From Candidatus Rokubacteria bacterium 13_2_20CM_69_15_1 (GTDB lineage: Bacteria > Methylomirabilota > Methylomirabilia > Rokubacteriales > CSP1-6): DNA of 34,555 nucleotides. Under the pieces are notes generated by a model. The model worked only from the letters and a program-made list of their open reading frames with translations, was not told the DNA's origin and searched no databases. The translations under genes were made by a program, and so were the position numbers. The stretch is from positions 1 to 34,555 of the forward strand of contig MNCR01000071.1 of the NCBI GenBank assembly GCA_001914535.1, in the 5' to 3' direction. Each line of letters opens with the position of its first letter. Position 1 is the first letter of the stretch. Shown piece after piece: positions 10,495 through 34,555 of this stretch.

Positions 10495-10503
10495 TGAACT
10501 GCT

Positions 10504-10543: not shown

Positions 10544-11020
10544 ATGAAGGCCCGGCTCTCCCTGACCGTCAACGGCGAGACCCACGACATCCTCGTGCCC
10601 GTGCACAAGACGCTCCTCGAGGTGCTGCGGGAGGACCTGGGTCTCACGGGGACGAAGCACGGCTGCGAGCTCGGCGAGTGCGGCACCTGCACCGTCCTCG
10701 TGAACGGCGAACCCGTGCTCTCGTGCCTGGCGCTTCCCGCCGATCTCGCGGACGCGGAGATCACGACGGTGGAAGGCATGGCGGAGGGTGGGCGCCTCCA
10801 CCCGCTCCAGCAGGCGTTCGCGGAGCTCGGCGCCGCCCAGTGCGGCTACTGCACGCCGGGCATCCTCCTCACCGCTCAGGCGCTCCTCGCCGACCGGCCG
10901 AGCCCGACGCGCCAGGAGGTCAAGGAAGCCCTCGCGGGCAACCTCTGCCGCTGCACCGGCTACACGAAGATCCTCGACGCCGTCGAGTTGGCCGCGCTGC
11001 GCATGGGAGCTCCACGATGA
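10544..11020 (+). CDS. hcrC: 4-hydroxybenzoyl-CoA reductase, [2Fe-2S] subunit
   Basis: This 158-residue small subunit of a xanthine-oxidase-family enzyme passes electrons between the flavin subunit and the molybdenum site. The N-terminal ferredoxin domain binds one [2Fe-2S] through C41, C46, C49 (CELGECGTC) and C61. The C-terminal helical domain binds the second through C100, C103 (CGYC) and C135, C137 (CRC). The ATG at 10544 has AGGAG 5 nt upstream; a GTG at 10538 overlaps that ribosome site and is rejected. It overlaps hcrA by ATGA. The assignment to HcrC rather than CoxS or XdhC rests on the neighbouring hcrB. Confidence 0.88.
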   Translation: MKARLSLTVNGETHDILVPVHKTLLEVLREDLGLTGTKHGCELGECGTCTVLVNGEPVLSCLALPADLADAEITTVEGMAEGGRLHPLQQAFAELGAAQCGYCTPGILLTAQALLADRPSPTRQEVKEALAGNLCRCTGYTKILDAVELAALRMGAPR

Positions 11021-13551: not shown

Positions 13552-13627
13552 GCATTGGCCGGACGCAACCACACGCACCTATGGCAGGCCACCCACCAAA
13601 GGTACCGGCCCCGCGGCTCCCGTTAAG

Positions 13628-14644
13628 ATGATCCGGCTTCCCGCGTTCACGTACCTGGCGCCGCGCACCCTTGACGACGCGGCGGCGGCGATGGCCTCCC
13701 ACGGCGCCGAGGCGATGCTCGTGGCGGGAGGCACCGACCTCTATCCCAACATGAAGCGGCGCCAGTTCGAGCCGACCGTGCTGGTCGGCCTCCGAGCGAT
13801 CCGGGACCTCCAGGGCGTTCGCGGTGGCGCGCGCGACGGGATCACGATCGGCGCCGGCACGACGCTTTCCGCCGTCGCCGCGCACCGCGAGATCATCGCG
13901 CACTACCCGGCGCTCGCGACCGCCGCCGGCCTCGTCTCGTCACCGCAGCTCCGCAACATGGGGACGCTCGGCGGCAACGTCTGCGTGGACACGCGCTGCA
14001 ACTACTACAACCAGTCTTACGAGTGGCGGAAAGCGGTCGGGTTCTGCATGAAGAAGGATGGCGCGATTTGTCTCGTCGCCCCCGGGAGCCCGCGCTGCTG
14101 GGCGGTGTCGTCGTCGGACACGGCGCCGGTCCTCTGGAGTCTCGGTGCCCGCGTGCGGCTCTCCTCGACCGCGGGCGAACGCACGATTCCCGTCGAGGCG
14201 CTCTACCGCGACGACGGCATCGAGTACCTGGCCAAGCAGCCCGGCGAGATCCTCACGGACGTCCTGCTGCCGGCCGCCGACGGCTGGCGCTCCGCCTACC
14301 TGAAGCTCCGTCGGCGCGGTTCCTTCGACTTCCCGGTGCTCGGCGTCGCCGTCGCCCTCCGGATGGACGGGCGCGTCGTCGGCGACGCCCGGATCGTCAT
14401 CGGCGCCGTCGCCTCGCAGCCACGCCCGGCGCCCGCCGCGGCCGCGGCGCTCGTCGGTGAGCGGCTGGGACGCGAGCTGATCACGCGCGTCGCCGACCTC
14501 GCCGCGGGGCCGGCGAAGCCCCTCGACAACACAGACTTCACGCACCCCTACCGGAAGAAGATGACGCGCGTCTTCGTCGCGCGCGCGCTCGCATCCCTGG
14601 CGGGGCTCGAGCCGGCCGGCCGGCCGGCCGAGGAGGTCGCGTGA
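13628..14644 (+). CDS. hcrB: 4-hydroxybenzoyl-CoA reductase, FAD and [4Fe-4S] subunit
   Basis: This 338-residue subunit has the FAD-binding fold of the family: AMLVAGGTDLYPNMKRRQ (residues 29-46), TIGAGTTLSAV and RNMGTLGGNVC. It has an inserted loop with C124, C140, C148 and C157. The spacing (16, 8, 9) is, as I recall it, that of the four [4Fe-4S] ligands in Thauera HcrB, a feature absent from ordinary xanthine-oxidase flavin subunits. This is the best evidence that the complex is a 4-hydroxybenzoyl-CoA reductase. C119 is an extra nearby Cys. A 76-nt gap with no recognisable feature separates it from hcrA, and the ATG has no strong ribosome site. The stop overlaps the GTG of the regulator; CCGG-repeated codons lie just upstream (about 14610-14629). 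Confidence 0.9.
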   Translation: MIRLPAFTYLAPRTLDDAAAAMASHGAEAMLVAGGTDLYPNMKRRQFEPTVLVGLRAIRDLQGVRGGARDGITIGAGTTLSAVAAHREIIAHYPALATAAGLVSSPQLRNMGTLGGNVCVDTRCNYYNQSYEWRKAVGFCMKKDGAICLVAPGSPRCWAVSSSDTAPVLWSLGARVRLSSTAGERTIPVEALYRDDGIEYLAKQPGEILTDVLLPAADGWRSAYLKLRRRGSFDFPVLGVAVALRMDGRVVGDARIVIGAVASQPRPAPAAAAALVGERLGRELITRVADLAAGPAKPLDNTDFTHPYRKKMTRVFVARALASLAGLEPAGRPAEEVA

Positions 14645-15189
14645 CCACGCTCGGCGCGCGCATCAAGGGTCTCCGCGCCGAGCGCGAGCTGCAGCAGCGC
14701 CAGCTCGCCGAGAAGGCGGAGCTCACGCCGAGTATGGTGTCGCAGATCGAGTCCGGGCGGCTCACGCCCTCGCTCCACACGCTCGGCCGGGTCGCCGCGG
14801 CGCTCGGTGTGCCGATCGGCGCGCTGTTCGACGCAGAGCCCTCCGGCTCGATCGTGGTGACCCGCAAGAAGGATTACCCGGTCGTCAGCTTCGACGGCTC
14901 GTCGGAGCACTGGGCCGTGCTGGGCGCCGGGCTTTTCCAGGGCAAGATCCGTGCGGTCGTCTCGACCCTCGGGCCCAAGGAGCGCGGGGTCACGACCGAG
15001 AAGGTCGTCATCAAGCCCGGTCAGATGAAACTCGTCTACGTGATCGACGGCAAGGTGGCTCTGCACTACAACGGCGACCGCCACCTGCTCGAGGCCGGCG
15101 ACAGCGCGCTGCTCGACGGCGGCACGCCGCACGGCTGGGAGAATCTCGGCACGAAGCGGGCCCAGGCGCTCTGGGTCATTCTCGGATAG
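14641..15189 (+). CDS. XRE-family HTH regulator with C-terminal cupin
   Basis: This 182-residue protein has an N-terminal Cro/C1 helix-turn-helix (residues about 5-60; LAEKAELTPSMVSQIESGRL is the recognition region) and a C-terminal cupin (about 105-180; IKPGQMKLVYVIDGKVALHY, then LDGGTPHGWEN). The cupin probably senses a small molecule or CoA ester. The GTG start has AGGAGG 4 nt upstream and overlaps the hcrB stop. Box clusters are usually controlled by BoxR, an XRE fused to a shikimate-kinase-like domain; this protein has a cupin instead. Its place in the operon suggests autoregulation through the palindromes at 10483-10520 (inference). Confidence 0.9.
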   Translation: MTTLGARIKGLRAERELQQRQLAEKAELTPSMVSQIESGRLTPSLHTLGRVAAALGVPIGALFDAEPSGSIVVTRKKDYPVVSFDGSSEHWAVLGAGLFQGKIRAVVSTLGPKERGVTTEKVVIKPGQMKLVYVIDGKVALHYNGDRHLLEAGDSALLDGGTPHGWENLGTKRAQALWVILG

Positions 15190-15213
15190 CCCGGTCGCCC
15201 GGGGGGACAGGAT

Positions 15214-16883
15214 ATGGCTGACAGCGCAACCGTTCGCGTCGACTTCCGGACCGACCCGTCGAGGTACAGGCACTGGAAGCTCGCCTTCGACGGGCCCGTC
15301 GCCACGCTCGCGATGGACGTGCAGGAGGACGGCGGGCTCCGGCCGGGCTACGAGCTCAAGCTCAACTCGTACGACCTGGGCGTGGACATCGAGCTCTACG
15401 ACGCGGTCCAGCGGCTTCGGTTCGAGCACCCCGAGGTCGGCGCGGTCGTGATCACCTCGGGCAAGGAGCGCGTCTTCTGCGCCGGCGCCAACATCCGGAT
15501 GCTCTCCCAGGCGGCGCACGGCTGGAAGGTGAACTTTTGCAAGTTCACCAACGAGACCCGCAACGCGATCGAGGAGGCGACGGCCGAGTCGCGCCAGACT
15601 TACCTCACGGCCGTCAACGGCTCGTGTGCGGGCGGCGGCTACGAGCTGGCGCTCGCGACCGAGTGGATCATCATGGCCGACGACGGCAACACCGCCGTCT
15701 CGCTGCCCGAGGTGCCGCTCCTCGCGGTTCTTCCCGGGACCGGCGGGCTCACGCGGCTCGTGGACAAGCGCCACGTACGCCGCGACCGCGCCGACTTCTT
15801 CTGCACCACCGAGGAAGGCGTCAAGGGCCAGCGCGCCGTCGAGTGGGGGCTGGTGGACGAAGTCGTGCCACGCTCGCGCCTCGCCGAGGTCGTCGCCCAG
15901 CGCGCGCGGGAGTTCGCGGCGCGCACCGGCCGGCCGGCGGGCGCGCGCGGGCTCCGGCTCACGCCGCTCGAGCGGACCATCGCGGGCGACGCGATCCGCT
16001 ACAGCCACGTTGCGTGCGCGATCGACCGGGCGCGCGGGATCGCCGAGATCACGCTGACCGCGCCCGCCGCGCCGCCCCCGGCCGACGCGCGGTCCGTTCA
16101 CGCGCAGGGGAGCGCCTTCTGGCCGTTGGTCCTCGCGCGCGAGCTCGATGACCTCGTCCTCCACCTCCGCACCAACGAGGACGAGGTCGGCCTCTGGGTG
16201 TTCAGGACCGCGGGGCAGTCCAACCTGGTCGAAGCCTACGACCGGCTCCTCGCCGGCCACCGGGACGACTGGCTCGTGCGGGAGATCCGTCTCTACTGGA
16301 AGCGCACGCTCAAGCGCCTCGACGTCACCTCGCGCTCGATGTTCGCGCTGATCGAGCCGGGCTCGTGCTTCGCCGGCTCGCTCCTCGAGCTCGCGCTCGC
16401 CGCGGATCGCGCGTACATGCTGGACGGAGCGCGGCCGGGGGAGCGCCGGCCGCCGGCGACCGTACGCCTGACCGAGATGAACTTCGGTGGCTATCCGATG
16501 CCGAACGGCCTGACGCGCCTCGCGAGCCGGTTCCTCCACGACCCGGGCCGGGTCGAGAAGCTTCGGACGCGCGTCGGCGAAGACCTGGACGCCGCGGCGG
16601 CCGCCGAGGCGGGCCTCGTGACCTTCACGCCCGACGACATCGACTGGGAGGACGAGGTGCGGCAGGCACTCGAGGCGCGCGCGGCCTTCTCGGCCGACGC
16701 GCTCACCGGCATGGAAGCCTCGCTCCGGTTCGGCGGTCCGGAAACGCTCGAGACTAAGATCTTCGGCCGGTTGGCGGCGTGGCAGAACTGGATCTTCCAG
16801 CGTCCAAACGCGGTCGGCCCGAAGGGCGCGCTCGTCGTGTACGGCACCGGCCAGCGAAGCGAGTTCGACCGGAGGAGAGCGTG

Positions 16884-16884
<1 letters not shown>
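15214..16884 (+). CDS. boxC: 2,3-epoxybenzoyl-CoA dihydrolase (benzoyl-CoA-dihydrodiol lyase) BoxC
   Basis: BoxC hydrolyses the ring of 2,3-epoxybenzoyl-CoA, releasing formate and a C6 semialdehyde-CoA. The 556-residue protein has the enlarged crotonase fold expected: LRPGYELKLNSYDLGVDIEL, the oxyanion region KERVFCAGANIRMLSQAAHG (residues about 86-105), YLTAVNGSCAGGGYELALAT, SLPEVPLLAVLPGTGGLTRL and, in the second half, LIEPGSCFAGSLLELALAAD. Length matches known BoxC (about 555). The ATG at 15214 follows a GGGGGGA ribosome site. The stop overlaps the boxB ATG, so the two are coupled. Confidence 0.95.
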
Positions 16885-18302
<1,418 letters not shown>

Positions 18303-18322
18303 GCGGGCCGAGGGAGGCTCTC

Positions 18323-18772
18323 ATGCCGAGGGTGATCACGCCGCGAGAGTTCGGAAAGCCGCTCGGGATGTACTCGCACGGGATGGCGGCCCCGGCCGGT
18401 GAGCTCGTCGTCGTCGCCGGCCAGGTCGGCGCCCGGCGGGCGAGCGAGCTGGCCGGCCCGGACGTCGAGTCGCAGACGAAGCAGGCCTTCGCGAACGTCC
18501 GCAGCGTCGTGGAGGCCGCCGGCTGCTCGATGAAGGACGTCATCCGCCTCCAGACCTTCCTCATCAGCGCGGACGACATCGAGGGCTTCATGAAGGCACG
18601 GCACGAGGTGTTCTCCACGTACTTTCCGGACGGGACGTACCCCCCGAACACGCTGCTGGTCGTCGGCCGGCTCGTTCGCCCCGAGCTCAGGGTCGAGATC
18701 GAGGCGATGGCCGTGCGTCCGCGCGCCGCCACGCGGCGCAAGCCGGCCCCCGGGCGAAAGGTGCGGCGCTAG
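18323..18772 (+). CDS. RidA/YjgF-family protein
   Basis: This 149-residue protein belongs to the RidA (enamine/imine deaminase) superfamily: LVVVAGQVGA, QTKQAFANVRSVVEAAGCSM, DVIRLQTFLISADDIEGFM, and the C-terminal NTLLVVGRLVRPELRVEIEA, which includes the usual active-site Arg region. A basic tail (residues about 132-149) follows. AGGGAGG lies 5 nt before the ATG. Relatives appear in several aromatic-degradation clusters, where they act on reactive enamine or enol intermediates. Which compound it handles here is unknown. Confidence 0.88.
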   Translation: MPRVITPREFGKPLGMYSHGMAAPAGELVVVAGQVGARRASELAGPDVESQTKQAFANVRSVVEAAGCSMKDVIRLQTFLISADDIEGFMKARHEVFSTYFPDGTYPPNTLLVVGRLVRPELRVEIEAMAVRPRAATRRKPAPGRKVRR

Positions 18773-18796
18773 CCTGAGCCACCGGGGGAGCCAGAC

Positions 18797-20347
18797 ATGA
18801 ACGCGTCGGACTTCTTGCCCGCGCAGTTCAACGCCGCCGCCTGGTTCGTCGACAAGAACGTCGCGGAGGGTCGGGGCGCCAAGCCGGCGTTCCTCTACGA
18901 GGACCGAACGCTCACGTACGCCGACGCGCACGAGCTCGTCAACCGCACCGGCAACGCGCTCCGCGAGCTCGGTGTCGAGATGGAGCACCGGGTCCTCATG
19001 CTCTGTCTCGACGCGCCGGAGTTCATCGGGACGTTCTGGGGCGCCATCAAGATCGGCGCCGTCCCGGTCCCGGTGAACACGCTGATGCGCACCACCGACT
19101 ACCGCTATTTCCTCGAGGACAGCCGCGCCCGGGTCGCCGTCGTCTCCGCGCCGCTGCTCGCCGAGGCGGCGCCGGCGCTGGTCGAGGCGAAGCACCTCAA
19201 ACACGTGCTGATCGCCGGCGGGAGCCACGGGCCATTCATGTCCTACGAGGACCGGATCGCCCGGGCGTCCGCGACGCTCGAGGCGGCGCCCACGTCGCGG
19301 GACGACGCCGCCTTCTGGCAGTACTCGTCCGGGTCCACCGGGTTCCCGAAGGGCGCGGTCCACCTGCACCACGACATGGCGGTCTGCTGCGAGACCTACG
19401 GCAAGCAGGTCCTCGGGATCCAGCCGACCGATCGGGTCTTCTCGGCGGCGAAGCTCTTCTTCGCGTACGGGCTCGGCAACGCCTGCTTCTTCCCGATGAG
19501 CGTGGGCGCGCAGAGCGTGCTCTACCCGCACCGGCCGACGCCGGAGTCCGTCTTCGAGATCATCGCCCGCTACCGCCCGACGCTCTTCTTCGGCGTGCCG
19601 ACGCTCTACGCCGGCATGCTCGCGGTCAAAGAAGCCGAAGCGCGGTTCGACACCGCGTCGTTGCGGCTCTGCGTGTCGGCGGGCGAGGCGTTGCCCGACG
19701 CGATCTACACGCGCTGGCGTGAGCGGTTCCGCGTCGAGATTATCGACGGCATCGGCACGACGGAGATCGGCCACATCTTCATCTCGAACCGTCCCGGCCT
19801 GGCGCGCCCCGGCTCCTCGGGGCTCCCGGTGCCGGGCTACGAGCTTGCCATCGTGGACGACGAGGGGCGCTCGGTCCCATCGGGCGAGATCGGCAACCTC
19901 CGCGTCAAGGGCGACTCCACGATGGCGTACTACTGGAACAAGCACGAGAAGACCAAGGCGACGCTCTTCGGCGCGTGGATCCAGACGGGCGACAAGTACT
20001 ACGCGGACGAGGACGGCTACTTCTGGTACTGCGGCCGCTCGGACGACATGCTCAAGGTCGGGGGGATCTGGGTCTCGCCGGTCGAGGTCGAGGCGACGCT
20101 CGTGCGCCATCCGGCCGTGCTCGAAGCGGCGGTGGTCGGCCAGGAGGACACCGACCGGCTCGTCAAGCCGAAGGCGGTCATCGTCCTCAAGGAGCCCTGG
20201 AAGGCGTCCGAGGAGCTCGCCAACGAGCTCAAGACCTTCGTGAAGGACAAGATCGCGCCCTACAAGTACCCACGCTGGATCGAGTTCGCCGGCGAGCTGC
20301 CGAAGACCGCGACGGGCAAGATCCAGCGCTTCAAGCTGCGCCGCTGA
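18797..20347 (+). CDS. Benzoate-CoA ligase family protein (BadA/BclA-like)
   Basis: This 516-residue AMP-forming ligase activates an aromatic acid to its CoA ester. It opens FLPAQFNAAAWFVDKNV, typical of benzoate-CoA ligases, and has the P-loop YSSGSTGFPKGAVHLHHDM, the adenylate motif IDGIGTTEIGHIFISN, YYWNKHEKTKAT, and the A10 lysine in LPKTATGKIQRFKLR. GGGGGAG precedes the ATG. It could act on benzoate, 4-hydroxybenzoate or both; the HcrCAB genes make a 4-hydroxybenzoate-tolerant enzyme attractive, but that is not visible in sequence. Confidence 0.92.
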   Translation: MNASDFLPAQFNAAAWFVDKNVAEGRGAKPAFLYEDRTLTYADAHELVNRTGNALRELGVEMEHRVLMLCLDAPEFIGTFWGAIKIGAVPVPVNTLMRTTDYRYFLEDSRARVAVVSAPLLAEAAPALVEAKHLKHVLIAGGSHGPFMSYEDRIARASATLEAAPTSRDDAAFWQYSSGSTGFPKGAVHLHHDMAVCCETYGKQVLGIQPTDRVFSAAKLFFAYGLGNACFFPMSVGAQSVLYPHRPTPESVFEIIARYRPTLFFGVPTLYAGMLAVKEAEARFDTASLRLCVSAGEALPDAIYTRWRERFRVEIIDGIGTTEIGHIFISNRPGLARPGSSGLPVPGYELAIVDDEGRSVPSGEIGNLRVKGDSTMAYYWNKHEKTKATLFGAWIQTGDKYYADEDGYFWYCGRSDDMLKVGGIWVSPVEVEATLVRHPAVLEAAVVGQEDTDRLVKPKAVIVLKEPWKASEELANELKTFVKDKIAPYKYPRWIEFAGELPKTATGKIQRFKLRR

Positions 20348-20364
20348 AGCGCGGAGCCGCGACC

Positions 20365-21642
20365 GTGTTCGATCGCGCGCTGGAGACGCTGCCGCCCGAT
20401 CACCTGCACCTGCATCAGTGGCACCGCGTCCGGGCCATGGCGCGCGAGCTGCTCGCCTCCAATCCGTTCGTCGGCGCGAAGTGGCGCGCCGCCGGCGTCC
20501 GCGCGGTGGACGACCTCTCGGGCTGGGACGACTTCCGCCGGCTGCCCTTCACGCGCAAGGTCGAGCTCGTCGAGGACCAGGCGGCGCACCCGCCCTTCGG
20601 CACTAACCTCACGTACCCGCTCGAGCGATACGTGCGGGTCCACCAGACTTCCGGCACGAGCGGGCAGCCGATCCGCTGGCTCGAGACACCGGAGTCGTGG
20701 GAATGGTGGGCGCGGTGTTGGGCGTTCGTCCTGCGCGGGGCGGGCGTCGAGCCGGCGGACCGCGTCTTCTTCCCGTTTTCGTTCGGCCTCTTCATCGGCT
20801 TCTGGGCGGGCTTCGAGGGCGCGCGCGCCCTCGGCGCGCTCGCGATCCCGGGCGGCGGGCAGGACTCGGCGACGCGGCTCGGATGGATGCAGGCGCTCGG
20901 CGCGACCGCGCTCGTGTGCACGCCCTCGTATGCGCTCCATCTGATCGAGGTGGCCCGCGAGCGTGGCCAGGATCCGTCCAAGGGCTCTGTGAGGATCACC
21001 GTCCACGCCGGCGAGCCGGGCGCCTCCATTCCCGCGGTGCGCGCACGCATCGAGGCGGGGTGGGGTTGCCGCGCCTACGATCATGCGGGCATGACCGAGG
21101 TCGGCGCCTACGCGTACGAATGCGCCGAGCAGGCGGGGCTCCACGTGAACGAGAGCGAGTTCGTCGCCGAGGTGATCGACCCGACGACCGGCGCGCCCGC
21201 GCGCGACGGCGAGCTCGTCCTCACGAACCTCGGGCGCGTCGGCTCGCCCGTCATCCGGTACCGCACGGGCGACCGCGTGCGCCTCGCCGCTCCACCGTGC
21301 GCATGCGGACGGACGTTCGTCCGCCTGGAGGGGGGCATTCTCGGCCGGTTCGACGACATGCTCATCGTCCGCGGCGTCAACGTCTTCCCCGCGGCGATCG
21401 AGGGCGTCGTGCGCCGCTTCCCGACGGTCGACGAGTTTCAGATCGAGGTGTTCCGCCACGGCGAGCTCGACGAGGTTCGCCTGCTGATCGAGCTCGAAGA
21501 CGCCGCCGGCGCGCGCCCGGTCCAGGAGGCGCTCCGCGAAGCACTCGGCATCCGCCTCGAGGTCGCCGCCGTGCCGCCGAAGAGCCTCCCGCGCCACGAG
21601 CTCAAGGCGCGCCGCGTCGTGCGGCGAACGCCGGGCGCGTGA
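20365..21642 (+). CDS. Phenylacetate-CoA ligase-type (PaaK-family) ligase
   Basis: This 425-residue enzyme belongs to the shorter PaaK branch of AMP-forming ligases: PFTRKVELVEDQAAHPPFG, P-loop HQTSGTSGQPIRW, YDHAGMTEVGAYAYEC, SPVIRYRTGDRV, a four-Cys-like CACG loop, and RFDDMLIVRGVNVFP at the hinge. The start is the GTG at 20365, 17 nt after the preceding stop, with only a weak GGAG upstream. As a second ligase in the operon it may take a different substrate (phenylacetate or a hydroxylated benzoate). It is the last gene of the run that begins at 10544. Confidence 0.88.
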   Translation: MFDRALETLPPDHLHLHQWHRVRAMARELLASNPFVGAKWRAAGVRAVDDLSGWDDFRRLPFTRKVELVEDQAAHPPFGTNLTYPLERYVRVHQTSGTSGQPIRWLETPESWEWWARCWAFVLRGAGVEPADRVFFPFSFGLFIGFWAGFEGARALGALAIPGGGQDSATRLGWMQALGATALVCTPSYALHLIEVARERGQDPSKGSVRITVHAGEPGASIPAVRARIEAGWGCRAYDHAGMTEVGAYAYECAEQAGLHVNESEFVAEVIDPTTGAPARDGELVLTNLGRVGSPVIRYRTGDRVRLAAPPCACGRTFVRLEGGILGRFDDMLIVRGVNVFPAAIEGVVRRFPTVDEFQIEVFRHGELDEVRLLIELEDAAGARPVQEALREALGIRLEVAAVPPKSLPRHELKARRVVRRTPGA

Positions 21643-21743: not shown

Positions 21744-21814
21744 TTCAAGTGACGGGCAGGGGTCGGCCCGGCTGGTTGCCGTCGCCGGGGGCGTCCCTTG
21801 TAGGGTCACGCGAG

Positions 21815-23899
21815 ATGGAACCAGATCGCAAGGAAGCCAAGAAGACGCACGCTCCCGAGATTGCCTCAGGGGTGTCGTTCGGCTCGACCGTCACCCTCCT
21901 CTTCAGCGACATTCGCGGCTTCACGGACTACACCGACCAGTACGGTGACGCGGCCGCGTACCAGGTCCTCCAGGAGCACAACGCCATCGTCCGCAAGCAG
22001 ATCGAGGCGTTCGGCGGCCAGGTCGTCAAGACCCAGGGCGACAGCTTCATGGTCGCCTTCACGACCGCGCGCGGCGCGATCCTGTGCGCGGTCGCGATCC
22101 AGCACGCCCTGGGCGCGGCGAACCGGAACCAGTCGGGGACCCGCATCGCCATCGGCATTGGCATCAACACCGGCGAGCCGATCCAGGAAGGCGGCGACTT
22201 CTTCGGCGGCATGGTGAACCTGGCCGCCCGGATCTGCGCGGCGGCGGGCCCGGGCGAGATCTTCATCGCGGAGACCACGCGGTACGTCGCGGGCCGGATC
22301 GAGTCGGTCGAATTCGTCGATCGGGGGCTCCACGAGCTCAAGGGCTTCCAGGAGCCTCAGCGGGTGATCGAGGTGCGATGGCAGTCGTCCGGGGCCGAGC
22401 CCTCCGGCGCGAAGGAGGCCGAGATCGCGGCCGTGATGCAGAATGCGATCGACGTGCTGAACCGCGTGCTCGGTGTCGCGCACGCGGACGATCCGGTGTT
22501 CCGGCCGCTCGTCGAGTGCCAGGCCAAGGCCAGCGACCTGCGGCTGACCCTCTCCCGCTCCGCGTCCGATCGCCAGAGCCAGAGCGTGCAGCGGATCCAG
22601 GAGGCGATCCGCCCGTTCGAGGACTTCGTCACGCTCCTCGTCGAGCGGGACACCCTCGAGGAGCAGCGCTCGGCGCAGATCGAGACCCGCGTCGCCCGCT
22701 CGTTCGGCTGGCCGCTGGTGACCGCCGCGGCGCGTGGGCGGCTGTCCTTCGCCGGCGCGCCAGCGCCCACACCAGCGCCCGCGCCTGCGGCCCCACCGCC
22801 GCCAGCGCCGAGGCCAGCGCCCAGGCCGGCGCCGGCGCCCGCGGCCACACCGACGTCAGCACCCGCGCCGCCGCCAGTGCCCGCGGCGCCGCCAGCGCCG
22901 ACGAGGGCGCCCGCGCCGAAGGCGGCGGAGGTTCCCACCGGGTTTGCCGCTCCCCGCACGTCGGCGGTCGAGGCGCCCGCGGTGAGAATCGACCCGCGCG
23001 GCGCGGGCGTGCGCTGGTGGGCCCCCGCGTGCGAAGCCTGGAGCGAGTGGAAGTCGTCGGGCATCGCGTGGGCCTACGCCCTGCGCCTCGTCGTCGCCGA
23101 GTACCCCCACCTGCTCGCCGTGCCCATCCGAGAGAGTGCCGCGCACGCAGAGCGGCTGGCCGCCGGCTACTTTCTCCTCCTCGAGCACGTCGAGAACCGG
23201 TCGCCGGGGTTCGTGCAGGCCGCTGTCGCGCGCGCGCTCGGCCAGGGCCGGGGCGCCGGCGAACCGGAGGTGCTCGGGCGAGAGCTCTACGAGCTGCTCG
23301 TCACCGATGGCCGGCTGCGCGAGACCTATGCGGCGTTCGTGAGCGACGTCATGGGCACCGCCATCCCCAACCCGGGTCTCTGGGCCGACGTTGGTATCGT
23401 CGAGCAGGAGAACGCGACCGAGGTCATCACACACCGGGGCCGCGTCGTCGGTGAGACCCAGGAGCAGACCGAGCGCGTGACCGCGCAGACAGAGCGCACG
23501 ACCGATCACCGATTCGCGGTGGCATTGGCGCCGCTCACCGCGCGGTTTTTCTACATCAAGCCGGGTGATCTGAAGACACCGCGTGACGTCGACATCAAGG
23601 TGACGAAGGACGGCCAGCCGTCGGACCACGCCTGGCACGTGACGCTGAAGACGAGCCTCGTCGTCCGCTCGGAGCCGAAGCGCCTCGGACCCAAGGGCGT
23701 TGTCGTCAAGGGGCTGGGCCGAGAGTTCGCCGGCGTCTGGATCGGGGTCTTCAACGCCGATCCGGCGAACCCGGCGAGCTACGAGGTCGTGATGGCCGTG
23801 CGGCCGCCCGGACCGACAGGACCGACAGGGCCGCCGGGACCGATAGGACCGACGCCGCGCAAAGCGTCGCCGTTCGCGCCGCCCGGGCGCCGGCACTAG
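21815..23899 (+). CDS. Class III adenylate cyclase with proline-rich linker and collagen-like tail
   Basis: The protein has 694 residues. The N-terminal cyclase homology domain (about 22-195) has metal-binding D32 (FSDIRGFTDYT) and D76 (KTQGDSFMV), the adenine-selecting pair K72 and D128, and transition-state N135 and R139 (MVNLAARI), so activity with ATP is predicted. A region rich in Gln/Arg/Glu follows, then a Pro-Ala linker (about 310-385) and an unrecognised domain of about 300 residues (starting VRWWAPACEAWSEWK; includes TEVITHRGRVVGETQEQTE). The tail carries GPTGPTGPPGPIGPTP, collagen-like Gly-X-Y triplets. No membrane segment is seen. The start is uncertain: the ATG at 21815 has a weak ribosome site, and a GTG at 21749 would add 22 residues. 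The unknown half may be the sensor or target-binding part. Confidence 0.85.
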   Translation: MEPDRKEAKKTHAPEIASGVSFGSTVTLLFSDIRGFTDYTDQYGDAAAYQVLQEHNAIVRKQIEAFGGQVVKTQGDSFMVAFTTARGAILCAVAIQHALGAANRNQSGTRIAIGIGINTGEPIQEGGDFFGGMVNLAARICAAAGPGEIFIAETTRYVAGRIESVEFVDRGLHELKGFQEPQRVIEVRWQSSGAEPSGAKEAEIAAVMQNAIDVLNRVLGVAHADDPVFRPLVECQAKASDLRLTLSRSASDRQSQSVQRIQEAIRPFEDFVTLLVERDTLEEQRSAQIETRVARSFGWPLVTAAARGRLSFAGAPAPTPAPAPAAPPPPAPRPAPRPAPAPAATPTSAPAPPPVPAAPPAPTRAPAPKAAEVPTGFAAPRTSAVEAPAVRIDPRGAGVRWWAPACEAWSEWKSSGIAWAYALRLVVAEYPHLLAVPIRESAAHAERLAAGYFLLLEHVENRSPGFVQAAVARALGQGRGAGEPEVLGRELYELLVTDGRLRETYAAFVSDVMGTAIPNPGLWADVGIVEQENATEVITHRGRVVGETQEQTERVTAQTERTTDHRFAVALAPLTARFFYIKPGDLKTPRDVDIKVTKDGQPSDHAWHVTLKTSLVVRSEPKRLGPKGVVVKGLGREFAGVWIGVFNADPANPASYEVVMAVRPPGPTGPTGPPGPIGPTPRKASPFAPPGRRH

Positions 23900-24010
23900 C
23901 GGGTCCGCGCACGACGGGGATTTGGCGGAGCGTCGCGACGTGATTTCTCGGCCGTAGGACGTTCCGCTCCGACGACCGCCGCACGCCGTGAGATCGTCGA
24001 GCTCCCCACC

Positions 24011-24628
24011 ATGACCCACGAACCGACCCGCGAACCCTTCGACACGCTCGCGTCGGCGGCCCCCCCGGACCGGCCGCGCCGTGAGCGGGGACGCGGTTCC
24101 ATCCCATGGATCGTCGGCGCGGCTGCGGTGGCCGGCGTCGCCGCCGCGTTCTCGGGCGCCTTCGTCGCCGGACACTACGAGGCGCGGCTCGGGCAGATGG
24201 CCCGCGAGCTCGTGGCGACGCGCCAGCGCCTGCAGCGCGAGGTCGCCGCGTTGAACGACCAGCTCGCCCTCTACCGGAGCGCTGCGGACCTGCTGCGTGA
24301 CCCGGCGACCCGGGTCGTGACCCTCCGGGGTCTGGGCCCGAGCCCCGGAGCGTTGGGGCGGGTGATCTGGCACCGGTCTGCGGGCGGCCAGCTGTTCGTC
24401 GCGAAGCTGCCGCCGCCGCCGCCGGGCAAGGCGTATGAGTTGTGGACGATCGGCCAGGGTCCGCCGCGGCCCGCGGGCGTCTTCCGGGTGGACGCCGAAG
24501 GGCGGGCGACTCAGCGCGTGGAGCCGGTGGCGGGCGGCGAGCGCGTGAAGGGCTTCACCGTCACGCTCGAGCCGGAGCGTGGCGTGCCGGCGCCGACCGG
24601 GCCGATGGTCCTCGCGTCGGCCCGGTAG
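24011..24628 (+). CDS. RskA-like membrane protein (anti-sigma-K C-terminal domain)
   Basis: This 205-residue protein has a short charged N-terminus, one membrane helix (residues about 31-53, IPWIVGAAAVAGVAAAFSGA), a coiled coil (RQRLQREVAALNDQLALY), then a periplasmic domain with GQLFVAKLPPPPPGKAYELW, PAGVFRVDAEG and KGFTVTLEPERGVPAPTGPM. These are the marks of the anti-sigma-K factor RskA C-terminus. The cytosolic zinc-finger anti-sigma domain normally present is missing, and no sigma factor gene lies nearby, so it may not be a true anti-sigma factor. The ATG lacks a strong ribosome site; the 111-nt stretch upstream shows nothing recognisable. Confidence 0.8.
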   Translation: MTHEPTREPFDTLASAAPPDRPRRERGRGSIPWIVGAAAVAGVAAAFSGAFVAGHYEARLGQMARELVATRQRLQREVAALNDQLALYRSAADLLRDPATRVVTLRGLGPSPGALGRVIWHRSAGGQLFVAKLPPPPPGKAYELWTIGQGPPRPAGVFRVDAEGRATQRVEPVAGGERVKGFTVTLEPERGVPAPTGPMVLASAR

Positions 24629-28152: not shown

Positions 28153-28551
28153 ATGACCGACACGCGAGTGCCTCGCATCCTGGTGGTCGACGACGAAGAG
28201 CGCGTCCGCAGTCTCCTGTGCGATCTGCTGACGGCCTGGGGCTGTGAGCCTGTGGAGGCGTCGAGCAGCGACAAGGCCCTTGCGCTCTTCGAGCAGGGCG
28301 ACTACGACCTCGTGCTCACGGACTTCCTGATGTCGGGCCGGAGCGGTCTCGAGCTCGTCCGAGACGTCCGGAGCCGGGACGCTGCGATCGGCGTGATCAT
28401 GTTCACCGCGTCGAGCGTGGATCTCGACGCGGACAGCCAGCAACTCGAGTTCACGCTGCTGCGGAAGCCTGTCCAGCTCGACGGGCTCAAGAGCGCCGTC
28501 GGTCACGCGCTCAAAGGTCGCCCGCGCGGCGCCTCCCTCGCGTTTCTTTGA
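28153..28551 (+). CDS. Single-domain response regulator (receiver only)
   Basis: This 132-residue protein is a CheY-like receiver: ILVVDDEERVRSLLCDLL (acid pocket), YDLVLTDFLMSGRSGLEL with the phospho-acceptor Asp, VIMFTASS, and a Lys-Pro pair in LLRKPVQLDGLK. No output domain follows. It converges with the three-kinase operon, 17 nt from the end of the hybrid kinase, and is a natural candidate for a diffusible phosphate carrier of that system (inference). GAGAGGAG precedes the ATG. Confidence 0.9.
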   Translation: MTDTRVPRILVVDDEERVRSLLCDLLTAWGCEPVEASSSDKALALFEQGDYDLVLTDFLMSGRSGLELVRDVRSRDAAIGVIMFTASSVDLDADSQQLEFTLLRKPVQLDGLKSAVGHALKGRPRGASLAFL

Positions 28552-28568: not shown

Positions 28569-30875
28569 CTAGGCCAGCGCGTCCTGGATCGCGGCGTCGA
28601 GGTCGCCGGGACGGATCGGCTTGAAGAGACACCGGTGGACCTTGAGGCTGTCGAGACGGCCCTGGTCCTCCTCGCGCAGCCCCCAGCCGGTGATGAACAG
28701 GACCGCCACGTTCGGGTCCACCGCGCGGAGCCGCTCGGCAAACTCCCAGCCGTTCATGCCGGCCATGCCGAGGTTCGTCAGTACCGTGTCGAAGCGGCCG
28801 GGCGCATAGGCGGCGAGGGCGGCGGCGCCGCTCGGGGCCGTGGTCACGGTGTGGCCTGTGCTCCGGAGCAACTCGGCAAGCGTCGTGAGGACTTTCGGCT
28901 CGTCGTCGACGACCAGCACGCGCGCCTGCCGCCGGACCGTGACAGCCGCCGGCGGCGGGGTCGGCTTCGCCTGCGCGCGCCCGGCGGGGAACGTCAGCGT
29001 GAAGATCGCGCCGTGGCTGGGCTGGCTCTCGACGCGGATTTCGCCGCCGTGCCGCCGCACGATCGAGTACGCCATCGACAGCCCGAGCCCCGAGCCCGCC
29101 TCGCCCTTGGTCGAGAAGAACGGCTCGAAGACGCGCTGGCGCACGGCCTCGGACATCCCGACGCCGGTGTCGCCGACGGTGATCGTCACGGGGCCGCCGC
29201 GCTCCTGGCGCGTGGCGATCATGAGCGTGCCGCCGTCGGGCATCGCGTCGAGCGCGTTGAGGATCAGGTTCGTCATCGTCTCGGTGAGCGCGGCGGGCCG
29301 GCCGTGGATCGGCTCCACCGTCCCCAGCTCGAGCCGGAGGGCGAGCGGCCGGCTATCGTGAGCGATCTTCTCCTCCCACCGGGGCCGGGTGATCGCCACC
29401 GCGTCCTGGACGATCTGGTTGACATCGACCGCGACGAACTGCTCCTCGGGCCGGAGGCGCGCGAACGTCTGGATGCGCCGAACCGTCTCGGAGCCGTCGA
29501 GCGCCGCCGACTCCACGACATTGAGCGAGCGGTTCATGAACTCGGCGTCCCTGGGGTTTTGCTTCATGAGCTGCGCGTAGCCGAGGATCGCCTGGAGTAG
29601 GTTGTTGAAGTCGTGCGCGATTCCCCCGGCGAGCTGTCCGAGGGCCGTCAGCTTCTCGGACTGGTGGAGCTGTTTCTCGACCTCGCGCTGCACGGTGATG
29701 TCCCGGACGATCGCGATGACACCTTCGAGCTCGCCCAGCCGCCCGTGCAGTGCGGAAAGCGTGACGGCGAGCGCCGTGGGCCGCGCCCCCCCTTTGGGCG
29801 GAGACGTCTCGAACTGATGCATGGCCTGCCCCGTGGCGAGCCGCCGCTTGGCGTCGGCGTACTCGCTGGCGGGCAGGACGTCCGTGATGGACCGGCCGAG
29901 GGCCTCCATCGACGCGAGCCGGAAGATCCGCTCGGCCGCGGGGTTCCAGCCGTCGATGTGATCGTCGGCCCTGATCGAGATGATCGCGTCACCCGCCGAG
30001 GCGATGAGCTTCTCGAGCGACCGCTTGGTGTCGGCGATCTCACCGTACAGGCGGGAGTTGCGTAACGCGATCGCCAGGTATTCGGAGAGCATCTCGAGGA
30101 GCTCGCGCTCCAGCGGGTCGATCGGGCGCCCGGAGGCGCGGTTGTCCACGACGAGCGCCCCGAGCGGCCCCTGCGCGTCACGGATCGTGCACACGATCAC
30201 CTGCGGGTCCTCGCCCGCCTCCCACGCCGACGTGTCCGCCGTGACCGTGACGCGGTCGTAGCCGAGCGCCGCCTGGAGCTGCGCCGAGACGCCCGCGGTC
30301 AGCTCGCCCGGATCGAGCTCGCCGACGATGGTCCGGGAGATCTCGCGCAGGATCGAGAGCTGGGTGACCCGGAGGGACTGCTCGGCGGCCTCGCGCCGGG
30401 CGGTCTCCTCGAGCTGGCGCGTCTTGGTCGCGAGCTGCCGCATTTCCTCCACGAGCCGTGTCACCTCGCTCCGGGCGCCGAGCTCCGTATGGCGCCGGAG
30501 CAGCGCGCGGCGGACGACGTCTTCCAGATCCTGGCGCGCGAAGGGCTTGATCAGGTACTCGAAGGCGCCGTGGGTGAGCGCGTGCTTGACGGTCTCGAGC
30601 GACGCGTAGGCGGTGATCATGATGACTTCGATGGTGGGATCGACGTTCTTGACGCGACGGAGGAGCTCGAGCCCGTCGATCTCCGGCATCTTGATGTCCA
30701 TGATCACGACGTCGGGCCGGAACCACTCGACCGCCTCGAGCGCGGCACGGCCGTTTTCCGCCGTCTGGATGTGGTACGCGGGCTTGAGGAGCATCCGGAG
30801 CGACTCTCGCGGGCCGAGCTCGTCGTCGACGACCAGGACGCGCGGGAGCGTGGTGGGCGGGGCGGCGGTGCTCAT
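28569..30875 (-). CDS. Hybrid histidine kinase, REC-GAF-PAS-HisKA-HATPase-REC
   Basis: This 768-residue soluble kinase has an N-terminal receiver (residues 12-128; D60 in VVIMDIKMP, K110), a coiled coil (about 135-175), a GAF domain (175-275), a PAS domain (285-395), HisKA with H421 in LAGGIAHDFNNLLQAI, a complete HATPase (N-box NLILNALDAM, DTGVGM, FEPFFSTK, GSGLGLSMAY), and a C-terminal receiver (about 655-768). In that last receiver the phospho-acceptor site reads VLTNLGMAG, so the Asp is replaced by N701 and phosphorylation there is unlikely. The start overlaps the preceding gene's stop (ATGA). It is the last gene of the three-kinase operon. Confidence 0.93.
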   Translation of the reverse strand: MSTAAPPTTLPRVLVVDDELGPRESLRMLLKPAYHIQTAENGRAALEAVEWFRPDVVIMDIKMPEIDGLELLRRVKNVDPTIEVIMITAYASLETVKHALTHGAFEYLIKPFARQDLEDVVRRALLRRHTELGARSEVTRLVEEMRQLATKTRQLEETARREAAEQSLRVTQLSILREISRTIVGELDPGELTAGVSAQLQAALGYDRVTVTADTSAWEAGEDPQVIVCTIRDAQGPLGALVVDNRASGRPIDPLERELLEMLSEYLAIALRNSRLYGEIADTKRSLEKLIASAGDAIISIRADDHIDGWNPAAERIFRLASMEALGRSITDVLPASEYADAKRRLATGQAMHQFETSPPKGGARPTALAVTLSALHGRLGELEGVIAIVRDITVQREVEKQLHQSEKLTALGQLAGGIAHDFNNLLQAILGYAQLMKQNPRDAEFMNRSLNVVESAALDGSETVRRIQTFARLRPEEQFVAVDVNQIVQDAVAITRPRWEEKIAHDSRPLALRLELGTVEPIHGRPAALTETMTNLILNALDAMPDGGTLMIATRQERGGPVTITVGDTGVGMSEAVRQRVFEPFFSTKGEAGSGLGLSMAYSIVRRHGGEIRVESQPSHGAIFTLTFPAGRAQAKPTPPPAAVTVRRQARVLVVDDEPKVLTTLAELLRSTGHTVTTAPSGAAALAAYAPGRFDTVLTNLGMAGMNGWEFAERLRAVDPNVAVLFITGWGLREEDQGRLDSLKVHRCLFKPIRPGDLDAAIQDALA

Positions 30876-32827
30876 CCGGCGGCCACCGGCAGCGACACCA
30901 CGAATGCAAGCTCGTTGCGGGCCTGGCGGACGCGGAGGTCGCCCCCGAGGGCTTCGACGAGCCGCTGGCTCACGGCGGGCCCCACGTCGATCAGGCTCTC
31001 CTGGACCATCTGCACCGGGTCGAAGAGGCGGTGCAGCTTGTCGGGCGCCACGGTGGCCGTCCGGGAGCCGATGAAGATCTGGACGTTGTCGCTCACACCC
31101 TTCTCGGTGTGCCGGCCGACCGAGACGGACACGCGGGCGTGCTCGGCGGGCGAGTTGTGCGTGAGGTACCAGACGAGGTACGACAGCGCCTTCCGGAGCT
31201 GCGGCACGTCCACCTTGACGCTAAGCGGCGCCGGATCGCGCGTGACCTCCAGCTGGAGCGGCTTGCCCAGCCCGTCGTCGGCGCCTTCGATCGTCGAAAC
31301 GACGTCGTCCACGATGGTGTGCACATCCACCGTGGTGAAGTTTAACTCACCCTCCGTCACAAGCGCCGCCAGTTTCTCGAAGACCTCCACCAGCCGCCGG
31401 ACGTCCCGCCGGACCACCGAGGAGAAGTGCTTGCGGAAGTCGGGATCGTCATAGCGCTCGCCGATCAGCTCGATGAAGGTGTTGATCGATACGAGCGGGT
31501 TCTTGATCTCGTCGGCGATCCGGGCGACGACGCGTGTCAGGAGCTGCGTCTGCTCCGCCTGGCGCCGCTGCGTCGCGAGCTCCTTCTGCGCCGTCAGGTC
31601 CTCGAAGACGAGGACGGCACCGAGCGGGAGCGCGTCGGCGCCGCGGACGGGGTAGGTCGAGACCTCGAGCCATAGCCCGCGCAGGGCGAGCTGCATGTCG
31701 GCCCGCATGACGGCGCGGCCCGAGCGGAGCGTGTCGTAGAGCATGTCGCCGAGCGGCGACGGCAGTACGCGCAGGTCCTCGCCCACGACGCCCTGCGCGC
31801 GAAGGTCGAGGATCTCCGCGGCCCGCCGGTTCATGGTCCCGACCCGTTGGTCGCGCCCGATCGTGATGACGCCGCTCGACATGTGCTCGAGGATCCGCTC
31901 GCTGAACTCCTTCTCGCGCGTGAGCTGATTGTGCAGCGCGATGTCGCGGATGGCCGTGGCGAGGTGAGTGGCCAGATCGAAGAGGGTCTCGGTTTCGCGG
32001 CGGCCGTAGGTCGACCCGACCACCGGCTGGCCGACCACCAGGATCGCCACGAGCTCGCCGTGTGCCAGGAGGGGGACCGCGAGCACGCTCTGGAGCAACT
32101 TGAGTTCGCGCACGATCTCGGGATCGGTCAGCTCGTGCACCCGGGCGGGTCGCCCCTGCGCGGCCAGCCAGCGCGCGAGTCCGGCGGTGGCGGGCAGGCG
32201 CACCGACTCGACGATCTGAGGCGCGAGCCCCCGGTGGGCGGCGATCCGGTAGTCTCGTCCATCGGCTTCGGGCAGGAGGAGTGCCGTGCGCGTCGGGCGG
32301 ACGAGCTCGCCGATGGCGTCGAGGAACATCTCGAGCACGCGTGGTAGGTGGAAGCCTGCGGCGAAGGCCCGGGTGAACTCCTTCAGCACACGGCCGAACG
32401 CGGCGCCGTCCCAGGGCTCGTCGGCGCGCGCGGCCGGCGCCTCCGTCGGCGTCGCGACGCTCGAGCGCAGCGCGGTGAGCTCGCGGACGAGCCGCAGCTT
32501 CTCCTCCGTGCGGTGGAGCACGTCCCGGAGGTCCGGCGCACCGAAGCCCGCGGGCAGTCGGAAGTCGACCGCCTCGCCCTCGTCGCCGGCCCCGCCGATG
32601 GCGACGGTGAGCGCCGAGGGCTGGATCTCCTTCACGCGGGCGGCGAACGCCTCGAGACCCCGCGGCAGGCCGACGCAGTCGCGCAGGATTACGTCGATGT
32701 CGATGAGCCGCAGGATCTTCACCGCCTCGGCGTCGCTCTGCGCGATGAAGGCAGAGTAGTCGTCGAGGGTGCCGAGCAGGCGTGTGCGGAGGGCCTCGTC
32801 GTGTGTGAGGACCAGGACGGTGTTCAC
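30872..32827 (-). CDS. Pseudo-histidine kinase (REC-like, GAF, PAS, degenerate kinase core)
   Basis: This 651-residue protein has a receiver-like N-terminus (1-115) with an acceptor-like D50 but no conserved Lys, a GAF domain (140-300), a PAS domain (305-415), and a dimerisation region where the H-box reads RIADEIKNPLVSI. The phospho-acceptor His is D439, while the upstream gene has IAHEIKNPLVAI. The ATPase-like part keeps length but not motifs: the N-box reads LSYLVWYLTHNS, no DxGxG is present, and the G2 box is replaced by DVGPAVSQ. Both catalysis and phospho-acceptance look lost, so a scaffolding or allosteric role is inferred. The GTG at 32827 overlaps the upstream stop (GTGA); in-frame extensions beyond it lie inside that gene. 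Confidence 0.88.
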   Translation of the reverse strand: MNTVLVLTHDEALRTRLLGTLDDYSAFIAQSDAEAVKILRLIDIDVILRDCVGLPRGLEAFAARVKEIQPSALTVAIGGAGDEGEAVDFRLPAGFGAPDLRDVLHRTEEKLRLVRELTALRSSVATPTEAPAARADEPWDGAAFGRVLKEFTRAFAAGFHLPRVLEMFLDAIGELVRPTRTALLLPEADGRDYRIAAHRGLAPQIVESVRLPATAGLARWLAAQGRPARVHELTDPEIVRELKLLQSVLAVPLLAHGELVAILVVGQPVVGSTYGRRETETLFDLATHLATAIRDIALHNQLTREKEFSERILEHMSSGVITIGRDQRVGTMNRRAAEILDLRAQGVVGEDLRVLPSPLGDMLYDTLRSGRAVMRADMQLALRGLWLEVSTYPVRGADALPLGAVLVFEDLTAQKELATQRRQAEQTQLLTRVVARIADEIKNPLVSINTFIELIGERYDDPDFRKHFSSVVRRDVRRLVEVFEKLAALVTEGELNFTTVDVHTIVDDVVSTIEGADDGLGKPLQLEVTRDPAPLSVKVDVPQLRKALSYLVWYLTHNSPAEHARVSVSVGRHTEKGVSDNVQIFIGSRTATVAPDKLHRLFDPVQMVQESLIDVGPAVSQRLVEALGGDLRVRQARNELAFVVSLPVAAG

Positions 32828-34555
32828 GCGGACACTGGCGCGGACGCCCCGACGGCGAGGGGAAACTCGATGGTGAAGACGGCGCCGCCCGCCGGCGCGT
32901 TCGCGACCTTGAGCTTGGCGTCGTGGGTCTGCGCGATCGCCGCGCAGATCGCAAGCCCAAGACCCGAGCCGCGCTGCTTGGTCGAGAAGAACGGCTCGAA
33001 GACGCGGTCGAGCAGCCCGGCCGGCACACCGGGCCCCGTGTCGCGGATGGCCACGATCGCGTGTGTCGCGGTCGCCTCCAGCTCGGCCCGGAGCGTGCCG
33101 CCCGGCGGTGTCGCCTCGTGAGCATTCAGCAAGAGATTCAGCAAGAGCTGCCCGAGCTCGGCGTGATCGCCGCGGATCACGCACGGTGTGGTGGGCGTCG
33201 CCACGGTCACGCCGATGTTCTTGTCCTCGAAGGCGGCCCGCATCGTCTCCACCGCCTCGGCGACCGGGAGCCGTAGATCGAGCGGCTGGCGGGGCCGATC
33301 GCTCGGCCGCGAGAGCGTGCGCAGGCGCTCGAGCAGCCGCTCCATGCGCTGGATCTCCCGCGCCGTGATCCGGCCGAACTCCTCGATGAAGCGCTCGTCG
33401 CTGTGGCGGCGCGGCAGGAGCTGCGCGAAGGTCTTGATCGCGACCAACGGGTTCTTGATCTCGTGTGCGATGCCCGAGGCGAGCATCTCGAAGTATGCGA
33501 GCCGCTCGGCGCGCCGCCGCCCCTTCTCCAGCTCCTTCAAAGATGTCAGGTCGCTGAACACCGCGACAGCGCCGAGCACCGTGCCGGCCGGATCGAGCAG
33601 GGGCGACGTCGTGCAGATGATCGGCCGCGTCGCGGTGCCGTCCGAGAGCTCGACTTCGGGCTGGGTGAGGGCCCGACCTTCGGCGACGCTGGTCGCGAGC
33701 GCGTCACGGAGGCACGACGGCAGCATGGTGGCCGGCTGGCCCGGGGTGTCCTCGGCGCGGAGCCCGGTGAGCTGTGCCGCGGCGCGGTTGAAGAGCGCGA
33801 TCTGGCCCCCGGCGTCGATCGCGACGACCCCGCTCTCGATCGTGGCCACGATGCTGTTGATGTACTCGTTCGCCAGGACGACCTGGGCGAAGAGTTGCGC
33901 GTTCTTGACCGCTACGCCCGCCTGGTTGGCCAGCGTCATCAACAGGTCGAGGTCCTGGGGGTAGAAGGGGTCGCCCGAGAGCTTGGGACCAAGCACGATT
34001 GCACCGATCACCGTGTCCTCCGAAGTCAGCGGGAGGACGAGTGCCCAGTTGAGCCGTGTGAGCTCGTCGTGGAGCCGTCGCTGCTCGGCCGTTGGATTGT
34101 CGCGCATCACCTCCTCGGTGAGGAGGAGGTCTCTCGTGCTGTCGAGTGCCGCAACGGCCCCGCCAGGCGCCTCGTCCGGCGCCTCGAAGGGCCCCTGCAT
34201 GGGCCGCGTGTCCCGGGCCGCCCGCCGGAACCCGCGCCGGTCACGCAGGTAGATCGCCACCCCCTCGGATCGGGTGGACGTGGCGACCGTATCGGTCAGG
34301 AAGGGCAGGAGCCTCTTGAGGTCGAGGACCCGCGTGAGCGCACGGCTCGCCTCGCGCACGGTGCGTTGATAGTTCGCGTGCGTGCGGTAGACGTAGCGGT
34401 CCAGGAGCCGGCCCGTGACGTCGCGGACGAACGGGATCAGCAGACTGACGGCGGCGATCGCGGCGAGCACCGCGACGAGCTCCGGGGTCTCGAGGTGAAG
34501 CGAGAGCCGCGGCCACGCGAAGGTGATGAAGACGCCGACCGGCAGCAGCGAGACC
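32824..34555 (-). CDS. Membrane-linked histidine kinase, 5' end beyond window
   Basis: The reading frame is open to the window edge, so the start lies outside. The visible part begins with hydrophobic segments (SLLPVGVFITFAW; LVAVLAAIAAVSLLIPFV), then LLDRYVYRTHANYQRTVREA, a GAF domain, a PAS domain (ANEYINSIVATIESGVVAID), HisKA with IAHEIKNPLVAIKTFAQLL, and a complete HATPase (LLLNLLLNAHEA, DTGPGV, FEPFFSTK, GSGLGLAI). It resembles PrsK-like kinases with an N-terminal multi-helix membrane domain. It is the first gene seen of the three-kinase operon and has all catalytic motifs. Confidence 0.92.
   Translation of the reverse strand, partial: VSLLPVGVFITFAWPRLSLHLETPELVAVLAAIAAVSLLIPFVRDVTGRLLDRYVYRTHANYQRTVREASRALTRVLDLKRLLPFLTDTVATSTRSEGVAIYLRDRRGFRRAARDTRPMQGPFEAPDEAPGGAVAALDSTRDLLLTEEVMRDNPTAEQRRLHDELTRLNWALVLPLTSEDTVIGAIVLGPKLSGDPFYPQDLDLLMTLANQAGVAVKNAQLFAQVVLANEYINSIVATIESGVVAIDAGGQIALFNRAAAQLTGLRAEDTPGQPATMLPSCLRDALATSVAEGRALTQPEVELSDGTATRPIICTTSPLLDPAGTVLGAVAVFSDLTSLKELEKGRRRAERLAYFEMLASGIAHEIKNPLVAIKTFAQLLPRRHSDERFIEEFGRITAREIQRMERLLERLRTLSRPSDRPRQPLDLRLPVAEAVETMRAAFEDKNIGVTVATPTTPCVIRGDHAELGQLLLNLLLNAHEATPPGGTLRAELEATATHAIVAIRDTGPGVPAGLLDRVFEPFFSTKQRGSGLGLAICAAIAQTHDAKLKVANAPAGGAVFTIEFPLAVGASAPVSA

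Follow-up and report, generated by a model that had tools for sequence, protein, structure and literature searches.

Can a histidine kinase that has lost both its phospho-accepting His and its ATP-binding site be kept as a working member of a multi-kinase operon, and what could it do there? This question is raised by a locus of Candidatus Rokubacteria bacterium 13_2_20CM_69_15_1, a soil bacterium of the order Rokubacteriales. The window, that is, the whole stretch of DNA analysed, comprises 34,555 nucleotides (nt) and corresponds to contig C101 (MNCR01000071.1) of a metagenome bin of 2.8 Mb that is 76% complete. Three co-directional sensor genes lie on its minus strand. K1 (32824..34554) encodes a seven-transmembrane (7TM)-type sensor histidine kinase with the domains GAF-PAS-HisKA-HATPase, as assigned from Pfam and full-length relatives. 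PK (30872..32827) encodes a pseudo-histidine kinase of 651 amino acids, which starts with GTG and is arranged as pseudo-receiver-GAF-PAS-DHp-CA. HY (28569..30875) encodes a hybrid kinase of 768 amino acids arranged as receiver-GAF-like-PAS-HisKA-HATPase-pseudo-receiver, whose kinase core appears active by its Pfam matches and key residues. As an earlier note on this DNA had described, the three genes are joined by overlaps of 4 nt (GTGA at 32827..32824 and ATGA at 30875..30872).

Loss of catalytic residues in PK and its conservation in the order

In PK, Asp439 (codon at 31511..31513, minus strand, as for all PK features below) takes the place of the phospho-accepting His in the H-box, which reads RIADEIKNPL, and the N-, G1- and G2-box residues are lost as well, all by replacement; both losses had been claimed in the earlier note. 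Specifically, the N-box Asn is replaced by Tyr at codon 554 (31166..31168; Tyr in 35 and Phe in one of 36 sequences), the G1 region reads SRTATV against the motif DxGxG (31049..31066), and the G2 region reads LIDVG against GxGLG (30980..30994). Across 36 orthologous sequences, every G1 residue is replaced and the last G2 glycine alone is retained. Additionally, the HATPase_c match of PK reaches 22.4 bits, under the cut-off of 26.4, compared with 88 bits in K1 and in HY (84.1 bits in another scan of K1), and its HisKA match reaches 27.9 bits at a cut-off of 26.9. Having neither a phospho-accepting His nor a HATPase_c match above cut-off, PK falls outside the active HisKA kinases and, from its sequence alone, fits the pseudo-histidine kinases, with the His, N, G1 and G2 residues all replaced. 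PK would therefore be unable to autophosphorylate.

The overall fold, in turn, is predicted to be retained. The predicted structure of PK comprises receiver-like, GAF, PAS, DHp and CA folds, with a mean predicted local distance difference test (pLDDT) score of 79.7 and parts of the DHp domain at low scores, and searches with PK against known structures and folds matched only histidine kinases (e.g. WalK and ZraS) and related sensor proteins. Among the domains named in the earlier note, GAF, PAS and HisKA are recognized by Pfam; the receiver-like region at the N-terminus (residues 1-112; 32492..32827) is seen in the predicted fold only, without a Pfam match and without the catalytic residues of a receiver.

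Relatives were gathered from a set of 60 genomes and by scanning genomes of species. Asp439 is present in all 39 non-identical Rokubacteria orthologues that cover the site, and in Rokubacteria the ATP motifs are lost. Because HisKA domains without His made up 0.9% in a published survey (PMC12632262), an Asp shared by 39/39 orthologues is not a chance finding. The stretch from E440 to S447 is invariant in the orthologue alignment. A PK match with an E value of 1e-60 or better was found in 49 of 60 genomes of the order; orthologues, truncated ones included, mostly score above 500 bits, compared with at most 235 bits for other kinases, and no orthologue was found in any of the genomes examined from the other families of the phylum. 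HY is present in 51/59 genomes of the order, and in those with HY and without a full PK, HY sits at or near a contig end, so that PK and HY appear to travel together.

In line with this distribution, PK evolves under constraint. In five same-genus pairs, the ratio of nonsynonymous to synonymous substitution rates (dN/dS) is 0.12-0.18 for PK, 0.22-0.28 for HY and 0.13-0.29 for K1, and within PK it is lowest in the DHp domain (0.00-0.07) and highest in the pseudo-receiver (0.19-0.32). Such rates fit a protein that is retained for the surface of its DHp domain and for its GAF and PAS sensors; they do not fit a decaying gene. The catalytically dead kinase seen in the window is a conserved, selected component of the multi-kinase operon across almost all of the order, and HY is always there with it; to this extent the interpretation in the earlier note is supported.

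The order of genes is strict as well. K1-PK-HY recurs in relatives and is not unique to the window's genome, and the 4-nt overlaps recur at 30/31 K1/PK junctions and at 31 of the 34 PK/HY junctions examined. The unit of three genes in the earlier note proved too short: full loci in relatives read KS-K0-K1-PK-HY or K0-K1-PK-HY, in which KS is a FabF-like ketoacyl synthase and K0 a further 7TM kinase. Because relatives carry this extra kinase, with or without the ketoacyl synthase, upstream, the operon comprises four to five genes; in two outer families it has one 7TM kinase only. K0 was not found in the window's own, incomplete bin, which is probably an assembly gap.

The HK2 family and its operon in other phyla

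A homologous operon is found in Verrucomicrobiota, Kiritimatiellae and Hydrogenedentota, where it encodes KS, a 7TM kinase (HK1), the kinase HK2 and an NtrC-type regulator. HK2 shares the pseudo-receiver-GAF-PAS-DHp-CA layout of PK, and the place of PK, with the gene for a 7TM kinase immediately upstream and a receiver-headed gene next, matches that of HK2. PK departs from the HK2 operon in one respect, as no NtrC-type regulator is adjacent and HY stands there instead; in agreement with the earlier note, no DNA-binding output is encoded in the Rokubacteria operon. Profile matches to HK2/PK occur in 37/68 Hydrogenedentota genomes, a few of which have just HK1 or a fragment, and in 40/289 genomes of the Verrucomicrobiota group.

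The GAF-PAS-DHp-CA region yields a tree with two clades, PK with HK2 on one side and all 7TM kinases of the operons on the other (support 99/97). An earlier tree restricted to DHp-CA had placed PK with HK2 only weakly (83/59), and the support rose when GAF-PAS and the Hydrogenedentota sequences were added. An origin of PK as a recent copy of K1 was accordingly rejected, as PK groups with HK2 and apart from the 7TM kinases.

The phospho-acceptor position has a fixed state in each lineage: Asp in 36/36 Rokubacteria sequences, Gln in 29/29 aligned (30/30 inspected) Hydrogenedentota sequences and His in 33/33 Verrucomicrobiota sequences. Only the Asp clade has lost the ATP motifs; the other two retain them. 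By alignment, Hydrogenedentota are thus a second branch in which the His is lost too, with the ATP motifs kept. The DHp domain is the best conserved domain in all three clades, and Glu+1, Asn+4 and Pro+5 relative to the acceptor position are invariant in 98/98 HK2/PK sequences. The earlier note had held that orthologues with an intact His and intact ATP motifs would speak against its proposal. Such relatives do exist outside the order, namely HK2 of Verrucomicrobiota, which has both; this does not make PK an ordinary kinase, and the sequences place PK as a derived member of the family without catalysis.

For the branching of the three clades, both groupings tested pass the approximately unbiased test (p 0.508 and 0.477), so that the His may have been lost either once or twice. 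Arg436, three residues before the acceptor position (H-3; PK codon at 31520-31522), is invariant in both His-less clades (36/36 and 29/29); the same position holds Ser, Ala or Gly in the His-bearing HK2, and the Arg is also absent from the 7TM kinases. This pattern hints at either shared ancestry or convergence of the His-less clades.

Partner kinases, the proposed role of PK and the surroundings of the operon

Distinct from PK, the kinases around it retain their catalytic residues. K1 has a HisKA match of 44.1 bits and intact active-site residues, although its 5' end is cut by the contig end at 34555; in relatives, K0 and K1 are HisKA_7TM kinases of 810-830 amino acids with PAS, mostly GAF, and an intact His. 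In HY, the kinase core is intact, as is the N-terminal receiver (30513..30839, minus strand), in which D17, D18, D60, T88 and K110 are all present. The description of the neighbours as canonical in the earlier note does not hold for HY: wherever the C-terminal receiver is intact, HY and its orthologues have Asn701 (codon at 28773..28775, minus strand) at the site of the phospho-Asp. Because of Asn701, phosphate from His421 cannot reach HY's own C-terminal receiver, and HY, without the phospho-accepting Asp there, is not a phosphorelay hybrid kinase by this measure. In two genomes (G035, loci L022/L072; G025, locus L104) the reading frame of HY is broken in or before the C-terminal receiver, and in G038 this receiver is missing.

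With some reserve, we lean towards the reading that PK is the Rokubacteria form of HK2 and acts as a non-catalytic sensor subunit, docking via its DHp domain on partners from the operon, either active kinases or receivers. There are precedents in DivL, which binds DivK~P (PMC4211667), and in RocA, which works through CovS (PMC7028121). The reading builds on what the sequences themselves show: PK and HK2 are homologous and share their place in the operon, Asp439 is fixed and the ATP motifs are gone in PK, its DHp domain is very strongly constrained, K0, K1 and HY are intact as kinases, and HY has an intact N-terminal receiver and the Asn701 pseudo-receiver. In the ancestor of the order, HK2 would have lost its phospho-acceptor His and ATP site, and the receiver-headed HY would have taken over the place of the NtrC regulator. 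PK itself would carry out no phosphotransfer; its GAF, PAS and pseudo-receiver domains would sense signals, and the face of its DHp domain would dock on, or form a mixed dimer with, the 7TM kinases K0/K1 and/or dock on the N-terminal receiver of HY, shifting the kinase/phosphatase balance of these partners. K0 and K1 would phosphorylate the N-terminal receiver of HY and so switch HY; as the C-terminal receiver of HY is unable to take up phosphate, HY may then donate it in trans to a regulator whose gene lies elsewhere. PK may in this way integrate or gate signals, as the earlier note had suggested. More tentatively, it is possible that catalysis of one kinase was stripped lineage by lineage (His retained; Gln in its place with the ATP site; Asp without the ATP site), joined in Rokubacteria by two dead receivers (the PK N-terminus and the Asn701 domain of HY), and that the dead domains signal by docking alone in a chain of otherwise active kinases.

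Weighing against this main reading, a search of Rokubacteria genomes for an orthologue of the NtrC regulator returned only many paralogues with flat scores, and the invariance of Asn443 (N443), which matches a residue that HisKA domains require for their phosphatase activity alone, keeps a phosphatase in play. The main rival, in our view unlikely, is indeed that PK is a dedicated phosphatase, which has lost its kinase half and kept the Asn at H+4, and which acts on the N-terminal receiver of HY or on a regulator elsewhere. ATP sites often support phosphatase activity, and the loss of that of PK in Rokubacteria speaks against such a role. In its favour, N443 is invariant in 98/98 HK2/PK sequences, and in CrdS the corresponding Asn is needed for phosphatase activity only; a CrdS mutant with Ala for His still dephosphorylates its regulator, with a half-life of 2.6 min versus 53.5 min without the mutant (PMC3510030). 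However, E440, which corresponds to a kinase-only residue in CrdS (PMC3510030), is equally invariant although no kinase activity is expected of PK, so that phosphatase activity is unlikely to be the sole reason for the conservation. Additionally, DivL, the best studied analogue, is without phosphatase activity (PMC4211667), and a survey of His-less HisKA domains saw no sign of phosphatase as a general role (PMC12632262).

Less probable again is that PK serves as the mixed-dimer subunit of K0 or K1, its dead DHp domain pairing with a live one so that the PK sensors gate the live subunit directly and HY forms a separate, later step. The conserved 4-nt overlaps couple PK translationally to K1, but they couple it just as strongly to HY. 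The 7TM kinases are the sister group of PK/HK2, and the DHp sequences of the two resemble each other, yet dimer exchange between kinases that have diverged as far as whole phyla would have to be assumed. The His-less HK2 of Hydrogenedentota, with its ATP motifs, would suit phosphorylation of a partner's His in trans; in Rokubacteria this is unlikely, the ATP motifs of PK being lost. That the PK module is a decaying or neutral paralogue, or an assembly artefact, might be suspected from its missing catalytic residues and from the fragmented metagenome bin of its host, and is highly improbable given strong purifying selection, the same Asp in 39 orthologues, presence in 49/60 genomes and strict gene order; decay or artefact was rejected on dN/dS and presence across the order.

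A further receiver stands beside the sensor genes. The convergent lone receiver of the earlier note (28153..28551, plus strand; 132 amino acids; Pfam Response_reg, 64.2 bits) is present and looks canonical. A place for it in the system is not supported: apart from the window's genome, it stands beside the operon in just five close relatives, and was for this reason dropped as a core part and regarded as accessory. A PfkB-like gene (c8) lies upstream of the Rokubacteria operon. Near the operon, positions 21749-24628 encode a protein of 716 amino acids with an adenylate/guanylate cyclase domain and an RskA-type anti-sigma protein, and the region 1887-21642, with thiolase, branched-chain amino acid transporter, molybdopterin/FAD dehydrogenase subunits and AMP-binding ligases, is an ordinary acyl-CoA or aromatic degradation region.

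The KS of the operon (L175-L184, L142, L023, L097 and L074) retains its Cys. At the position of its second catalytic His (KSxxGH), Hydrogenedentota have Gln and Verrucomicrobiota have Asn; three Rokubacteria retain the His, and G038 has Gln. The operon KS may thus be non-canonical too. In Hydrogenedentota (L175-L184), the gene ahead of KS is usually a conserved one for 530-600 amino acids, of B12/radical-SAM type by eye, and behind the regulator there is often a PfkB-like gene. At four loci of Verrucomicrobiota/Kiritimatiellae (L029, L032, L142 and L143), genes for an outer-membrane protein, FadL-type by eye, and for a REC-HisKA protein whose receiver resembles the N-terminal receiver of HY lie upstream of KS; fatty-acid-type signals are possible for this operon.

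Known systems and meaning for the family

The system most similar to the locus is perhaps DivL-CckA-DivK of Caulobacter cell-fate control, in which a pseudo-histidine kinase whose H-box residue is replaced and whose ATP site is weak likewise acts with a hybrid kinase and a lone receiver; DivL, with Tyr for His, is neither kinase nor phosphatase, and its receiver-docking face binds DivK~P (PMC4211667). Distinct from DivL, PK has Asp and not Tyr in the H-box, a fully degenerate ATP site, a GAF domain and a pseudo-receiver, and the relatives found for it are the HK2 proteins of Hydrogenedentota and Verrucomicrobiota. The genes of PK and its partners, furthermore, lie in one operon and in other phyla, the C-terminal receiver of HY is dead, and HY is not CckA by the NCBIfam equivalog model (223.8 and 201.4 bits, under the cut-off of 1000). 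RocA of group A Streptococcus, a pseudokinase homologous to sensor kinases, works through the active sensor kinase CovS of the CovRS system (PMC7028121). RocA, however, spans the membrane and meets CovS there, whereas PK has an N-terminal receiver-like domain and no membrane helices, and its gene sits among several sensor genes. PrsK/PrsR, linked to PEP-CTERM/exosortase, resembles HK1 and the regulator in general layout, as a kinase with an NtrC-type regulator. Against the PrsK model (TIGR02916), however, K1 reaches 98.6 bits, a lower bound because the window's K1 is truncated, and PK 45.4 bits, both under the cut-off of 300, and the PrsK/PrsR system, to our knowledge, has neither a ketoacyl synthase nor a second kinase. 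The C-terminus of HY recalls the pseudo-receivers of ShkA and CikA, which are non-phosphorylated receivers inside hybrid kinases and inhibit autophosphorylation (PMC12632262); that of HY differs in its Asp-to-Asn replacement, yet keeps Thr, Lys and mostly the acid pair.

As classes, pseudo-histidine kinases and pseudo-receivers were known before. As far as our tools show, what appears to be new is the operon and its occurrence in three phyla, a residue that is fixed in three different states within a single family, and a dead kinase paired with a hybrid kinase whose output receiver is dead; among open-licence papers, and under the terms tried, none was found on the KS-HK1-HK2-regulator or PK operon. 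HY also makes plain that the output receiver of a hybrid kinase can be dead although the protein is annotated as canonical. Among histidine kinases, those without the His are rare, and most of what is known of them comes from individual examples such as DivL and RocA. In the family described here, three states are found at the same operon position, each of them fixed in a lineage of its own: an active one, one that lacks the His but has ATP motifs, and one that is fully degenerate. They make up a natural series in which to ask what is left for a histidine kinase to do when phosphorylation has been lost.

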